The notes under the pieces were generated by a model that worked only from the letters and a program-made list of their open reading frames with translations, was not told where the DNA came from and made no database searches. Positions 42,848 through 48,672 of a DNA stretch of 64,000 nucleotides are shown here, piece after piece; within the stretch, counting starts at the first letter, position 1; each line of letters starts with the position of its first letter. Position numbers and translations under genes: made by a program. Source of the stretch: an uncultured Spirochaetaceae bacterium (GTDB lineage Bacteria > Spirochaetota > Spirochaetia > Sphaerochaetales > Sphaerochaetaceae); the NCBI GenBank assembly GCA_944389295.1, contig CALXLV010000016.1, positions 1 through 64,000 of the forward strand, read 5' to 3'.

Positions 42848-44185
42848 TCAGTATCCCTGTGCGCACATGGCATCCGCGACCTTTATGAACGCCGCGATGT
42901 TCGCGCCTTTAACATAATCTATATATCCGTCATCGCATCGTCCATGGCGTACGCATTCGGAGTGTATAGATTCCATTATATGCCTCAGGCGGCTGTCAAC
43001 CTCTTCCTCAGACCATGAGAGATGCATAGCATTCTGGCTCATCTCAAGACCTGATACGGCGACGCCTCCAGCGTTGGCGGCCTTTCCCGGAGCGAAGAGA
43101 ATACGGTTCTTCTCAAACTCCTCAACGGCCTCCGCAGTGCATCCCATGTTCGAGGTCTCCACCACATACCTTGCGCCGTTGGAGATGAGGGAAGCAGCAT
43201 CCTCCTTCCCCAGCTCATTCTGGATGGCGCACGGGAATGCGATATCGACAGGAACCTCCCACGGTTTCCTTCCCTTTACGAACTCTGCGCCGAATTTCCT
43301 GGCATAAGGCTCTACGACATCATTGTTGGAAGCCCTGAGCTGGAGCATATATGCCCACTTCTCCGGAGAGTTTATGCCCTTCTCATCATAGATATATCCA
43401 TCAGGGCCCGAGATCGTGACGACCTTTGCGCCGAGCTGCGAAGCCTTCATCACCGCACCCCATGCGACATTGCCGAAGCCTGATACTGCGACGCGCTTCC
43501 CCTCCATTGTCTCCCCGTTCTCACGGAGCATGTTCTCGGCAAAGTACATCGTCCCGAATCCGGTGGCTTCAGGTCTTATCCTCGAGCCGCCCCATCCGAA
43601 TCCCTTGCCGGTGAGGACTCCGGTGTTCTCAGTCCTTATCCTCTTGTACTGACCGTAGAGGAAGCCTATCTCGCGTCCTCCTACTCCGATGTCTCCCGCG
43701 GGAACGTCGGTGTCTGGTCCGATATATTTATAGAGCTCGGTCATGAACGAGCGGCAGAAGCGGAGGATCTCGGCATCCGAACGTCCCTTCGGCGAGAAAT
43801 CAGAGCCTCCCTTGCCTCCTCCCATGGGAAGGGTTGTCAGCGCATTCTTGAATGTCTGCTCGAAGGCGAGGAACTTCATCGTCCCTTCTGTCACGGAGGA
43901 ATGGAATCTCAGCCCTCCCTTATAAGGTCCGAGGGCGTTGTTGAACTGCACGCGGTAGCCGCGGTTCACCTGAATGTTACCCTCATCATCTTCCCACTCG
44001 ACTTTGAATGAGATCACCCTGTCGGGCTCGGTGATGCGCTCGAGTATCCTGTTCCTGATATAAGCAGGATTCTCATTCACCGTATCGATGACGGATGCGA
44101 CGACCTCCCTGACAGCCTGTATGAACTCCGGTTCGGAGGGATTCTTTCTCTCGACAGCACCCATGAAATCATCAAGCGTAAACAT
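42848..44185 (-). CDS. gdhA: NADP-type glutamate dehydrogenase
   Basis: GdhA interconverts glutamate with 2-oxoglutarate and ammonia. The 445-residue protein is of the hexameric class, with NNALGPYKGGLRFH, the catalytic-lysine stretch LPMGGGKGGSDF (near 110-121), PAGDIGVGGREIGFLYGQY and the dinucleotide-binding VSGFGNVAWGA (near 228). Length is normal. ATG 44185 has GGAGG five bases upstream; a longer frame to 44230 is rejected. A strong promoter lies just upstream. In an anaerobe it may serve nitrogen assimilation or glutamate fermentation. Confidence 0.96.
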   Translation of the reverse strand: MFTLDDFMGAVERKNPSEPEFIQAVREVVASVIDTVNENPAYIRNRILERITEPDRVISFKVEWEDDEGNIQVNRGYRVQFNNALGPYKGGLRFHSSVTEGTMKFLAFEQTFKNALTTLPMGGGKGGSDFSPKGRSDAEILRFCRSFMTELYKYIGPDTDVPAGDIGVGGREIGFLYGQYKRIRTENTGVLTGKGFGWGGSRIRPEATGFGTMYFAENMLRENGETMEGKRVAVSGFGNVAWGAVMKASQLGAKVVTISGPDGYIYDEKGINSPEKWAYMLQLRASNNDVVEPYARKFGAEFVKGRKPWEVPVDIAFPCAIQNELGKEDAASLISNGARYVVETSNMGCTAEAVEEFEKNRILFAPGKAANAGGVAVSGLEMSQNAMHLSWSEEEVDSRLRHIMESIHSECVRHGRCDDGYIDYVKGANIAAFIKVADAMCAQGY

Positions 44186-44201
44186 CTCTGCCTCCGCTTC
44201 C

Positions 44202-44230
44202 AGATTAATAGAGGTTACTGCATCCGTCAA
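44202..44230 (-). promoter_or_regulatory. Promoter of gdhA
   Basis: TTGACG (44230-44225) and TAATCT (44207-44202) are separated by 17 bases, placing the transcript start about 10 bases before the GGAGG site. Confidence 0.7.
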
Positions 44231-44380: not shown

Positions 44381-44575
44381 ATGAACAGACGCGATTCGAT
44401 CATATACAAAGTCTCCATGCTGCTGCTTGCGGCGGAGCTTCTGGTGACGATATTCACGATACTCCTGAAATCCGTCTCAGACAGATACCTTCTGGTCTCC
44501 GGCATCATAATACTCGTGACGATGGCGTGCACGGTGTACGGTTTCGTGAGAAAGCAGATGGAGAGAAGAGGATAG
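44381..44575 (+). CDS. Small two-helix membrane protein
   Basis: The 64-residue protein has two hydrophobic helices (VSMLLLAAELLVTIFTILL and YLLVSGIIILVTMACTVYGF) and short charged ends. No family was recognised. ATG 44381 is preceded by CGGAGC and by TATACT six bases upstream, so either a weak ribosome-binding site or leaderless start would serve. It ends one base before the receiver/PEP-synthase-like gene, which suggests a functional or at least transcriptional link. Confidence 0.6.
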   Translation: MNRRDSIIYKVSMLLLAAELLVTIFTILLKSVSDRYLLVSGIIILVTMACTVYGFVRKQMERRG

Positions 44576-44576
44576 C

Positions 44577-47492
44577 ATGTACCTTCTCGATCCGACATGG
44601 CTGCCATTTTCAAACCTGATGCTGCGGCATGTCTACAGCGTTCTCCTCATCTGCTCAGACTACGACAGGTTCATGCTCGAGGAGGACGGCAGGGTCGAGG
44701 AGGAGCTCTACAAGGAATATACGGCGCTCGGTCTTTCTACGCCGCCAAAGATCACGCATGCATCAAACGAAACGGATGCGCTGGCGATGATAGACTCACT
44801 TCCGTTCGATCTCGTGATCTCAATGCTCGATCTTGGTTCCGACAGGGTTGAGGGGCTTGCAAAGGCGATAAAGGAGAAAAAGCCTTCGATGCCCGTGATA
44901 GCCCTCTCCCCCTCTCCCGACCACAGGAAGGCGAAGGAGCTCAGGGGAGAGAACTGCCCGTACATAGATTACCTCTTCTACTGGCAGGGCAACGCCGCGC
45001 TCTTTCTGGCGATGGTCAAGCTCATCGAGGACAGGATGAACGCGGATCATGACACAAACGAGGCGGATGTACAGGTCATAGTGCTCGTCGAGGATTCTGT
45101 GAGGTTCATCTCATCATACCTGCCTGAGATGTATCTCTGCCTTATAAAGCAGAACAGACTCTCAATTCTTGAGGCGCTGAATGACTGGGGAAAGACGCTG
45201 AGGATGAGGGGACGTCCGAAAATCCTCCTTGCCACCGACTTCAGCGAGGCATGGGAGATATATGAGCGCTACAGGGACAACATACTCGGCGTTATAACCG
45301 ACATCAACTTCCCCTCCCCCAAAGGTACGGATGGCGCGGGGCTGAGGCTTGCGAGGAGGATAAAGGAGGACAACCCGGAGGTACGCATACTCATCCAGAG
45401 CACCGAGGAGAAGAACAGGAAGGAGGCTGGAGAGGCAGGAGCAGACTTTCTGTGGAAGCTCTCGCCGACAATACTGCAGGACCTTGAGAAGTACTTCCTC
45501 TCCTCATACAACTTCGGGCCGTTCATCTTCATCGATCCGGAGAGCGGGAAGGAGATAAGCCGCGCCAATACGATGAAGGAGGTACAGGAGACGCTCCGCA
45601 CCCTTCCCCTCCCCTCATTCCGCTACCACTCGAAGCGCAACGACTTCTCACGCTGGCTCAGGGCCCAGTCGCTGTACATGCTCGCCTCAAAGATAAAGAA
45701 CATAAATCTCGACTCCGGCATGACGGACGAGGAGACAAGGGATCTCCTCTACAGAACGATAAGGGACTACAGGGCCGAGAGGACAAGGGGCGTAATCGCG
45801 GAGTTCACACCATCCTCATACGATGACACGGTGCTCTTCGCCAGAATCGGGAAAGGCTCGCTCGGAGGAAAAGGAAGGGGTCTTGCGTTCATAGCAATGG
45901 AAATGAAGGCAAGCGGAATAAGGCAGAAATATCCTTCCGTCTATCTCTCCATCCCCCGCACCATAGTGATAACCACCGAGCTTTTCGATGAGTTCATGGC
46001 GGAGAACTCATTCTCTGACCTCTCCTTTGCAGAGAAGGATGACAGTGATATCCTCTCTCTCTTCCTCTCAGGAGAGATTCCAGCAGGGCTCAGAGAGGAC
46101 CTGAAAGCGATACTCAGAATCGTGAAAAAACCGCTTTCCGTACGCTCCTCATCACTTCTGGAGGATTCACACTTCCAGCCTTTCGCCGGTGTCTACCAGA
46201 CCTCGATGATCGCAAACACGGGAAGCGATGAGAAACGCCTTGCCGAACTTGAGATGGCAGTCAAGACGGTCTGGGCATCAACTTATTTCAGCACCGCACG
46301 GGAATATCTGAGAAGCACTCTCCACTCGCTTGAGGAAGAGAAGATGGCCGTGATAATCCAGCAGGTGACAGGTTCTGACCATGGAGGTTTCTGGTATCCA
46401 AACGTAGCGGGTGTCGCGAGATCGCTGAACTACTACCCTGTTCCGGGGCAGAAGGCCGAGGACGGCGTGGGAATGCTCTCGTTCGGACTGGGGAAGATGA
46501 TCGTGGATGAGGGAACGGCGTTCCGGTTCTGTCCGGCAAAGCCAAGGAAACCCTCAGACTCGCTCTCAGGGGAGTCATCATCGCAGGAGAGCTTCTTCGC
46601 GCTTGATCTCTCCGGCAGCTTCGATCCCCTCACAAACACAGACAACCTTGTGAGAAAGAACATCGACGGAGAGACGGAGCGTTTTCCGAAGGCGTTCAGA
46701 GGCATAGCTTCCACACTCGACATGAACACGGGAATGCTCTCCGAATCGATGCGCACCGAGGGCATGAGGATTCTGACGTTCAACGGGATACTCAAATATG
46801 AGATGCTGCCCCTCGCCCCGATCATAGACGACATGCTCAAGCTCGGTTCCAACGCGATGGCGGAGCCTGTGGAGATAGAGTTCGCGGTGGACACCGAGCA
46901 CAGCGGACGGCCGGACTTCTCAATACTGCAGATAAGGCCGATATCGGGGACGGCAGGATACTCAAGCATCCCTGTAACCGATGAGGACAGGGAAAAAGCT
47001 CTTATTTATGCCGAGAAAGTCATGGGGAACGGTGTTGCCGATGATATCAGGGACATCATCACGATAAAGCCGGAAGCGTTCAGGGCCAGTAAGATGACTG
47101 AGATGGCGAGGGAGCTTGAAATTCTGAACAGCGGCATCGACAGCCTCTATGTGCTTGTCGCAGCAGGACGCCTCGGCTCATCAGACAGATGGCTCGGCAT
47201 TCCGTGCACATGGTCGCAGATATCACGGGCCCATGTGATAGTCGAGACAGGAGTGAAGGAGCTGCAGGTGGAGCCCAGCCAGGGAACGCACTTCTTCCAG
47301 AACATGACATCACTGGGCTGCATCTATCTCACCATCAATCCGGTGTACGGGGACGGAATATTCAGATACGAGAAAATTGCATCGATGGAGATTGTCAGGG
47401 AAACCGAGCACTTCATCCATGTGAGAAGCGAAAAACCGCTTATAATAAAAGCCAGCGGTCTCGATGGCAGGGCCGTCATAAGGAAGGAATGA
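44577..47492 (+). CDS. Receiver-domain / PEP-synthase ATP-grasp fusion protein
   Basis: The 971-residue protein begins with one or two receiver-like domains (about 15-150 and 155-315; the second has LATDFSE...GVITDINFPSPKGTDGAGL with a plausible phospho-Asp and ILIQSTEE) and continues with the ATP-grasp domain of PEP synthase/pyruvate phosphate dikinase (IGKGSLGGKGRGLAF near 420-435, VRSSSLLEDSHFQPFAG near 520-536). The phosphohistidine domain and the PEP-binding barrel of true PEP synthase are absent, so it cannot catalyse the full reaction alone. It may be a phosphotransfer regulator. ATG 44577 has GAGGATAGC upstream; the alcohol dehydrogenase gene follows by 1 base. Confidence 0.75.
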   Translation: MYLLDPTWLPFSNLMLRHVYSVLLICSDYDRFMLEEDGRVEEELYKEYTALGLSTPPKITHASNETDALAMIDSLPFDLVISMLDLGSDRVEGLAKAIKEKKPSMPVIALSPSPDHRKAKELRGENCPYIDYLFYWQGNAALFLAMVKLIEDRMNADHDTNEADVQVIVLVEDSVRFISSYLPEMYLCLIKQNRLSILEALNDWGKTLRMRGRPKILLATDFSEAWEIYERYRDNILGVITDINFPSPKGTDGAGLRLARRIKEDNPEVRILIQSTEEKNRKEAGEAGADFLWKLSPTILQDLEKYFLSSYNFGPFIFIDPESGKEISRANTMKEVQETLRTLPLPSFRYHSKRNDFSRWLRAQSLYMLASKIKNINLDSGMTDEETRDLLYRTIRDYRAERTRGVIAEFTPSSYDDTVLFARIGKGSLGGKGRGLAFIAMEMKASGIRQKYPSVYLSIPRTIVITTELFDEFMAENSFSDLSFAEKDDSDILSLFLSGEIPAGLREDLKAILRIVKKPLSVRSSSLLEDSHFQPFAGVYQTSMIANTGSDEKRLAELEMAVKTVWASTYFSTAREYLRSTLHSLEEEKMAVIIQQVTGSDHGGFWYPNVAGVARSLNYYPVPGQKAEDGVGMLSFGLGKMIVDEGTAFRFCPAKPRKPSDSLSGESSSQESFFALDLSGSFDPLTNTDNLVRKNIDGETERFPKAFRGIASTLDMNTGMLSESMRTEGMRILTFNGILKYEMLPLAPIIDDMLKLGSNAMAEPVEIEFAVDTEHSGRPDFSILQIRPISGTAGYSSIPVTDEDREKALIYAEKVMGNGVADDIRDIITIKPEAFRASKMTEMARELEILNSGIDSLYVLVAAGRLGSSDRWLGIPCTWSQISRAHVIVETGVKELQVEPSQGTHFFQNMTSLGCIYLTINPVYGDGIFRYEKIASMEIVRETEHFIHVRSEKPLIIKASGLDGRAVIRKE

Positions 47493-47493
47493 G

Positions 47494-48672
47494 ATGACAT
47501 CATCGCTTTACACGCCGACGCGCGTCACTCTCGGAAGAGGAGCAGAGGACGCTTTAGGAGATGAACTCAGGAAGGACGGGGCAAAGAAAGTCCTGATCCA
47601 CTACGGCTCGGACCGCATCATAGACAGCGGCCTGATGAAGAGGGCCACCGACCAGCTCGACAGGGAAGGAATCGGATACGTCCTTCTCGGCGGAGTCAAA
47701 CCCAATCCGAGGCTCTCCCTTGTCAGGGAAGGCATAGAACTCGGCAGAAAAGAGAGCATTGATTACATCGTCGCCATAGGCGGCGGCTCGGCAATAGACA
47801 GCGCCAAGGCGATAGCATACGGACTTTACAACGACGGCGATGTCTGGGACTTCTACACAGGCGACAGAGTTCCGGAGGGAGCCCTGCCCGTGGGAGTGAT
47901 TCTCACCCTCGCAGCCACAGGATCTGAGATGAGCAACAGTTCCGTAATATCAAACGAGGACGGCGGCCTCAAGCGCGGCTGCAACACCGACTACGGCCGT
48001 CCGAAATTCGCCCTCCTCGACCCGGAGCTGACATTCTCCGTGCCGCCCTATCAGACTTCATGCGGAACGGCGGACATGATGATGCATACAATCGAGAGAT
48101 TTTTCCACTCCGGCGCCTCCCTCGATCTCACCGATGATCTCTCCATCGCGCTCATCAGGAACATCACCGTGAACGGAGAGAAGGCGCTGCAGAATCCGAA
48201 CTGCTATGAGGCGAGGAAGAACCTGATGTGGGCATCTTCGCTTGCGCACAACGGGCTTACGCAGATGGGCAACGAGCAGAGGGGCGACTGGGCGTGTCAT
48301 CAGATGGAGCATGAGCTTTCAGGAATGTTCGATGTGGCGCACGGCGCCGGTCTTACCGCGATATGGGGAACATGGGCGCGCTATGTCTATCTTGATTATC
48401 CTGAGCGCTTCGCAAAGCTGGGAGCGGGAGTATTCGGCATAAAGCGCACAGGTTCTCCAGAGAACGATGCGGCAGCATCCATAAAGGCCTTCGAGGACTA
48501 TTTCAGGAAAATCCATATGCCCGTCAGCCTCAGGGAGCTGGGGATAAACCCCTCAGACAAGCAGCTTGACGAGCTTGCCGACAAGGCAGTTTTCTTCGGC
48601 AAGCGCACTCTGGGAGCGTTCAAGGTTCTTCAGAGGGACGATATAAGAGAGATATACAGACTGGCAAGGTAA
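47494..48672 (+). CDS. Iron-containing alcohol dehydrogenase (butanol-dehydrogenase type)
   Basis: The 392-residue protein belongs to the type III (Fe) alcohol dehydrogenases, BDH/YqhD branch. It has the nucleotide-binding AIGGGSAIDSAKAIA (about 90-104), ATGSEMSNSSVI, metal ligands in TADMMMHTIERFF, HQMEHELSG and FDVAHGAGLTAI. It would reduce an aldehyde with NAD(P)H, regenerating cofactor in fermentation. The start has AAGGAATGAG upstream and lies one base after the preceding gene, so the two are co-transcribed. A strong terminator follows. Confidence 0.92.
   Translation: MTSSLYTPTRVTLGRGAEDALGDELRKDGAKKVLIHYGSDRIIDSGLMKRATDQLDREGIGYVLLGGVKPNPRLSLVREGIELGRKESIDYIVAIGGGSAIDSAKAIAYGLYNDGDVWDFYTGDRVPEGALPVGVILTLAATGSEMSNSSVISNEDGGLKRGCNTDYGRPKFALLDPELTFSVPPYQTSCGTADMMMHTIERFFHSGASLDLTDDLSIALIRNITVNGEKALQNPNCYEARKNLMWASSLAHNGLTQMGNEQRGDWACHQMEHELSGMFDVAHGAGLTAIWGTWARYVYLDYPERFAKLGAGVFGIKRTGSPENDAAASIKAFEDYFRKIHMPVSLRELGINPSDKQLDELADKAVFFGKRTLGAFKVLQRDDIREIYRLAR

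Follow-up and report, generated by a model that had tools for sequence, protein, structure and literature searches.

PEPR, a receiver and ATP-grasp protein encoded beside glutamate dehydrogenase, as a candidate regulator of that enzyme

The PEPR locus and the domains of its product

We studied a window of 64,000 nucleotides from an uncultured Spirochaetaceae bacterium (GCA_944389295.1, contig CALXLV010000016.1, positions 1 to 64,000, forward strand). It holds an open reading frame on the + strand (44577..47492) for a protein of 971 aa, to which we gave the working name PEPR (receiver-receiver-PPDK_N-GTHFF protein). Divergent from it, on the - strand, lies the gene of an NADP-type glutamate dehydrogenase (GDH; 42848..44230; ELFV_dehydrog, and NF006929 over its cut-off), which is a neighbour of PEPR across phyla. 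No inverted repeat of note was found in the divergent GDH/PEPR promoter region. Two further genes flank PEPR on its own strand, with gaps of 1 bp each: a two-helix membrane peptide of 64 aa upstream (44381..44575, best start 44381) and an iron-containing alcohol dehydrogenase (Fe-ADH; 47494..48672) 3' of it. All 36 genomes examined from the bacterium's genus, its own included, hold near full-length relatives of PEPR, and others of ~39-42% identity occur in Bacteroidales, other Bacteroidetes, Delongbacteria, Ignavibacteria, Planctomycetota, Gemmatimonadota, Myxococcales and others, showing that the gene is real and not a chance reading frame.

In PEPR, Pfam matched Response_reg (1e-9, two stretches) and PPDK_N (PF01326, 3.3e-39, residues 428-797), in agreement with an earlier note on this DNA that had described receivers fused to the ATP-grasp of PEP synthase. 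Receivers are present and a complete PEP synthase fold is not. As the same note had proposed, the PEP barrel is missing: Pfam matched neither PF02896 nor the PEP-utilizers domain PF00391, and the secondary structure of the model beyond residue 797 is not that of a barrel. NCBIfam gave partial matches far under cut-off (prodigiosin ligases, PEP synthases, response regulators). The full protein was predicted by AlphaFold with a pLDDT of 85.5 and a pTM of 0.79. Conservation was read from an alignment of 43 PEPR members, from which L044 was excluded for a stop codon.

Where the earlier note counted one or two receivers, two modules were found, the first degenerate and the second intact. Receiver 1 (residues ~20-155, 44637..45041, + strand) has no acceptor Asp at position 83, the acceptor site at the end of the third strand, which is M in 32, T in 8, S in 2 and L in 1 of the 43 sequences. 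Its D85 in the window protein is Asp in just 12 of 43, and an invariant W136 occupies the Lys position. Receiver 2 (residues 165-316, 45069..45524, + strand) carries E172, D242 (codon 45300-45302), S275 and K294 in all 43 sequences and D173 in 41 (N in 2), so that the acidic pair, the acceptor Asp, the Ser/Thr and the Lys of the response-regulator pattern are all there. The receiver fold of the model aligns to known structures with Z scores of about 13-15. Being intact, receiver 2 is supported by its conserved residues as the putative two-component input of PEPR; the genome holds six HisKA matches, none of them on the PEPR contig. Between the receivers and the ATP-grasp lies a linker (residues 329-394, 45561..45758, + strand) with a sub-threshold DUF5752 match (Pfam 19.4 bits, cut-off 23).

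The ATP-grasp (residues 428-797, 45858..46967, + strand) keeps K432, R523, E766, E768, Q785 and R787 in 43 of 43 aligned sequences. We take K432, R523, E766/E768, Q785 and R787 to be the equivalents, in position and in catalytic role, of K22, R92, D321/E323, Q335 and R337 of PPDK, and this correspondence fits the motifs of the PPDK from the same genome. When the comparison was widened to 128 distinct cores of all architectures, none of which was removed by the motif filter, K432, R523, E768, Q785 and H905 of the C-terminal domain were kept in every one. Such invariance of the ATP site and of H905 speaks for phosphate chemistry over mere binding. ATP use by PEPR and control by a two-component signal, both put forward in the earlier note, find support in this site and in D242/E172/S275/K294; transfer of the phosphate to an external acceptor, which it also proposed, may occur.

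The cores differ in what is attached to them. Among the 128, 92 are of the receiver type, 20 are long (~1180 aa), eight are short and receiver-less, three are of ~1060 aa and five are others. The long type has an N-terminus that looks GAF-like by eye, with a weak receiver match in L068. In 18 of these 20 long paralogues (L068:4370-7900 and similar) R787 is replaced by Lys, and their activity is perhaps altered; the equivalent residue is essential in PPDK. Four short forms were translated and measure 564-603 aa. The ~1060-aa relatives (L107:3746-6925, L109:2234-5425, L111:3748-6909) end in a nucleotidyltransferase-like domain, matched as NTP_transf_2 in L107 (Pfam 6.4e-7) and L111 (2.7e-5) and seen as a motif by eye in L109. 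They share their strand with an adjoining receiver-less relative and GDH, and stand second from GDH, about 1.8 kb away, with the short form in between. Such a fusion resembles the regulators of nitrogen enzymes that act by nucleotidyl transfer. Among the five others is one whose N-terminus looks KaiC-like by eye; a relative of this appearance from a Spirochaetia genome (L113:4177-6741, G040) has GDH on one side and a phosphofructokinase gene on the other.

A candidate carrier histidine at the C-terminus

Residues ~800-971 (46974..47489, + strand) form a conserved domain that has no Pfam name. H905 (codon 47289-47291) is invariant (43/43) within a G[T/S]HFF motif, and the domain also bears a GRWGS motif. 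The earlier note had stated that no swivelling phosphohistidine domain was present; PF00391 is indeed matched in none of the 43 C-terminal domains, and what was overlooked is this conserved domain with its swivel-like predicted fold. Modelled alone (AlphaFold, pLDDT 91.3), it adopts a beta/alpha fold whose elements run strand-helix-strand-helix-strand-[G(T/S)H]-helix-strand. This order presumably matches that of PPDK, with H905 at the helix start like the carrier histidine.

In VIA-align, rows 1-7 for this model were all carrier-type domains with weak Z scores of 5.8-6.9: the C-terminal part of pyruvate kinase 2e28, which we assume to be carrier-like (6.9), the PPDK carrier 2fm4 (6.4, over 111 residues at 3.2 A), plant PPDKs (5.9-6.2) and rifampin phosphotransferase (5.8). 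Close behind came apical domains of transferrin receptors (from 5.8) and of chaperonins (5.4). As all these Z scores are below 8, the rank is no more than suggestive of a swivelling phosphoryl-carrier-like fold. Foldseek returned nothing significant for the model, its best hit being an unrelated protein (E 0.078). Homology to the PEP-utilizers domain found no support in HHalign, in which 43 and 71 C-terminal sequences were compared with 16 swivel domains of the PPDK/PEP-synthase type: probabilities did not exceed 2.2% and the alignments were misplaced (E 0.03-0.065 local, 0.0078 global). As Foldseek and HHalign give no support, it is the element order, the motif and the weak structural rank that suggest H905 as a phosphohistidine, and PEPR may have in it a His domain of its own.

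The earlier note had advised a search for a stand-alone PEP-utilising His-domain protein. In the own genome PF00391 matched just the PPDK (C38) and a frame of 590 aa (C8) that is PtsI-like by length and domain position, and no such acceptor was found; as the assembly is 87% complete, its absence is not certain.

Linkage of PEPR to glutamate dehydrogenase

To compare neighbourhoods, 70 of 80 PEPR loci were entered and ten left out; L044 had no centre ORF, giving 69 loci (32 from spirochaetes and 37 others). A GDH gene was found near PEPR in 56 of the 69 (29 spirochaete, 27 other). For L092, L096 and L102, which were among the 13 misses, a genome search placed GDH 182, 220 and 124 bp away; this raises the count to 59, and some of the remaining misses sit close to contig ends. 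No other gene cluster occurred in more than 23 of the 69 loci, and the next one common to spirochaetes and other groups was present in 15. The partner conserved across phyla is GDH, which the earlier note did not mention, and not the membrane peptide or Fe-ADH that it had named. These two are real genes but lineage-local. The Fe-ADH cluster lies 3' of PEPR in 23 of 32 spirochaete loci and in none of the 37 others. For the membrane peptide, a tblastn search of 40 spirochaete loci detected relatives only upstream of PEPR in close spirochaetes (E below 1e-6 in L025, L027-L029, L034 and L052; weaker in L030-L032).

Whole genomes were then counted. Among 60 Spirochaetia genomes, own included, 46 had a PEPR match and all 46 had GDH; for 48 of 51 PEPR matches, one of the 51 being a receiver-only fragment, a GDH gene lay at most 6.6 kb away on that contig. 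In 18 genomes of loci from other groups, GDH was within 6 kb for 22 of 31 PEPR matches, these being the ones kept from 42 after removal of 11 receiver-only rows (E 1.6e-6 or weaker); two weak GDH rows were also removed. Of 149 Bacteroidales genomes, 133 had a PEPR match (three only at E 4e-4 to 9e-4) and 141 had GDH; GDH was within 6 kb for at least 43 of the 150 PEPR matches listed, in at least 36 of 113 genomes, so that linkage is partial in this order. PEPR was present with no GDH match in G089, G122, G125, G149 and G208, all from the Bacteroidales set of 149, and in G074. Conversely, GDH without PEPR occurred in seven Spirochaetia genomes and in 14 of the 16 PEPR-less Bacteroidales genomes, the GDH match being weak in one of these 14.

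The arrangement of the two genes is variable. In 104 PEPR-GDH pairs less than 2 kb apart, GDH was upstream on the opposite strand in 52, downstream on the same strand in 27, upstream on the same strand in 23 and downstream on the opposite strand in 2; four arrangements mean that the linkage is not one inherited order. Two types of GDH take part, and PEPR paralogues pair with GDH by type. In both G056 and G036, a PEPR relative of 43-45% identity stands beside a GDH of 74-77%, and another of 37% beside a GDH of 55-56%. In G057, a receiver-less relative adjoins a GDH of 35%. For GDH of this last type the best model was GdhA_Arch, below its cut-off (two of two scanned); the short forms in L107 and L111 adjoin a GDH with this best model. 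Side-by-side GDH and PEPR genes occur more than once in the multi-copy loci L087, L090, L094 and L107, and, with longest-ORF starts, the genes of the short form and of GDH overlap in L107 and L109. A Mantel comparison of PEPR and GDH distances gave r 0.66, reached by none of 500 permutations. We give it little weight because it includes species relatedness and because the same genome may stand under two locus ids, the 104 pairs being 100 distinct by sequence; one GDH may also be nearest to two cores.

The own genome contains a second GDH (G000:C5:28665-29978, 55% identical), which is unlinked since the sole PEPR match of the genome lies in the window, and which offers a natural control.

The linkage outlasts changes in gene order and strand, in the type of GDH and in the accessory domains, which indicates that PEPR acts on GDH itself, and we consider it very probable that PEPR is functionally tied to GDH. 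Linkage is an association, and tells neither direction nor chemistry.

A possible regulator of glutamate dehydrogenase, and comparison with known systems

As the best explanation, held with about even confidence, PEPR would be dedicated to the GDH encoded next to it, using ATP to regulate this enzyme and being switched itself by a two-component signal. A histidine kinase signalling nitrogen or energy state would phosphorylate D242 of receiver 2, and this would free the ATP-grasp to charge H905, in the swivel-like C-terminal domain, with phosphate taken from ATP. PEPR would then modify GDH, possibly covalently, or otherwise switch it reversibly. The parts of this scheme are not equally strong: for ATP-dependent control of GDH we see the chances as balanced, and the route through phosphorylated H905 is put forward tentatively.

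The variety of accessory modules (receivers, nucleotidyltransferase, GAF-like, KaiC-like) around a persistent linkage is also what a regulatory adaptor would display, and PEPR could be a non-catalytic, self-contained sensor whose ATP-grasp binds ATP or ADP, whose receivers bind the signal and which controls GDH by binding without phosphate transfer. The Lys at position 787 of most long paralogues agrees with this, but the residues invariant in all 128 cores, H905 among them, go beyond the need of binding alone, and we regard such a sensor as unlikely. A metabolic partner is somewhat less likely still. In this reading PEPR would be a dikinase for small molecules, and glutamate, 2-oxoglutarate or ammonia, as substrates or products of GDH, would be phosphorylated or coupled by it. 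This is in keeping with the closest solved folds, those of PEP synthase and of rifampin phosphotransferase (Z 25.7), which phosphorylate small molecules, and with prodigiosin ligases among the NCBIfam partial matches. However, the 971 residues contain no further domain recognised as acceptor-binding, and a regulator better suits both the control by receivers and the matching to GDH types.

The model of the earlier note, in which phosphate passes to an external acceptor and the membrane peptide and Fe-ADH form the functional unit, draws on the 1 bp gaps, which suggest co-transcription in the own genome, and on the frequency of Fe-ADH in spirochaete loci. Given that none of the 37 other loci has the Fe-ADH cluster beside PEPR, that the peptide was found in close relatives among the 40 spirochaete loci searched, and that no stand-alone PEP-utilizers protein was found in the 87%-complete genome, it appears improbable. 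An ordinary phosphorelay from ATP through H905 to PEPR's own receiver, with no protein target, has in its favour that the carrier-like His and the acceptor Asp are both present and invariant, yet short forms, which make up 6 of the 104 pairs, retain H905 without receivers; we think this very improbable.

If PEPR is indeed a regulator of GDH, it may stand for a widespread undescribed class, a generalisation that we hold somewhat below even confidence: its members would modify GDH reversibly by means of the ATP-grasp of PEP synthase and a carrier histidine that has diverged, each GDH type would have its own partner, and interchangeable modules (receivers, GAF-like, KaiC-like, nucleotidyltransferase) would set input or output. 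GDH is among the main enzymes by which Bacteroidales and other gut bacteria assimilate ammonia or break down glutamate. The linkage suggests an undescribed bacterial control of ammonia uptake or release. The GDH of B. fragilis is reportedly inactivated reversibly, for which the literature search gave no confirmation. With a named candidate family and predicted catalytic residues, control of GDH becomes directly testable.

The combination of REC and PPDK domains has already been published (PMC5847659), and these fusions are probably the PEPR family; the accessible part of that paper names the combination and is silent on GDH, on the degenerate receiver and on the C-terminal domain. A title of 1996 by Baggio & Morrison (cited in PMC4539542) reports trans-acting gene(s) downstream of gdhA that affect GDH activity in Bacteroides thetaiotaomicron, an effect that the proposed class, if real, could explain. 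The B. thetaiotaomicron locus tag BT_1971 was discarded as a candidate, being a catalase. In the accessible text of a paper on nitrogen in Prevotella ruminicola (PMC5552732), gdhA is treated and the terms 'phosphoenolpyruvate synthase', 'pyruvate phosphate dikinase' and 'response regulator' are absent. No description of the GDH linkage of PEPR was found in the literature searched, which included few subscription papers.

Among known structures, PEP synthase 2ols can be superposed on the PEPR model over 370 residues (Z 25.7, rmsd 4.9, from 409 to 971 of PEPR) and PPDK 1dik over 343 residues (Z 18.9, rmsd 5.1, from 419 to 971), both alignments extending into the range of the phosphohistidine domain. 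Like these enzymes, PEPR keeps the ATP-grasp half with its K, R, E and Q-x-R positions. Unlike them, it has no PF00391 match and no PEP barrel, and bears N-terminal receivers and the C-terminal G[T/S]HFF and GRWGS motifs; a separate PPDK, truncated where its contig ends, is encoded in the own genome. If the proposed regulation holds, the ATP-grasp of PEP synthase has been reused as a signalling module. An ATP-grasp without PEP barrel is shared with rifampin phosphotransferase (5hv1, 5hv2; Z 25.7 over 284 residues for 5hv1) and with HpeI (9goj; Z 18.5). PEPR differs from both in having no recognised rifampin-binding domain and in possessing receivers and a GDH neighbour.
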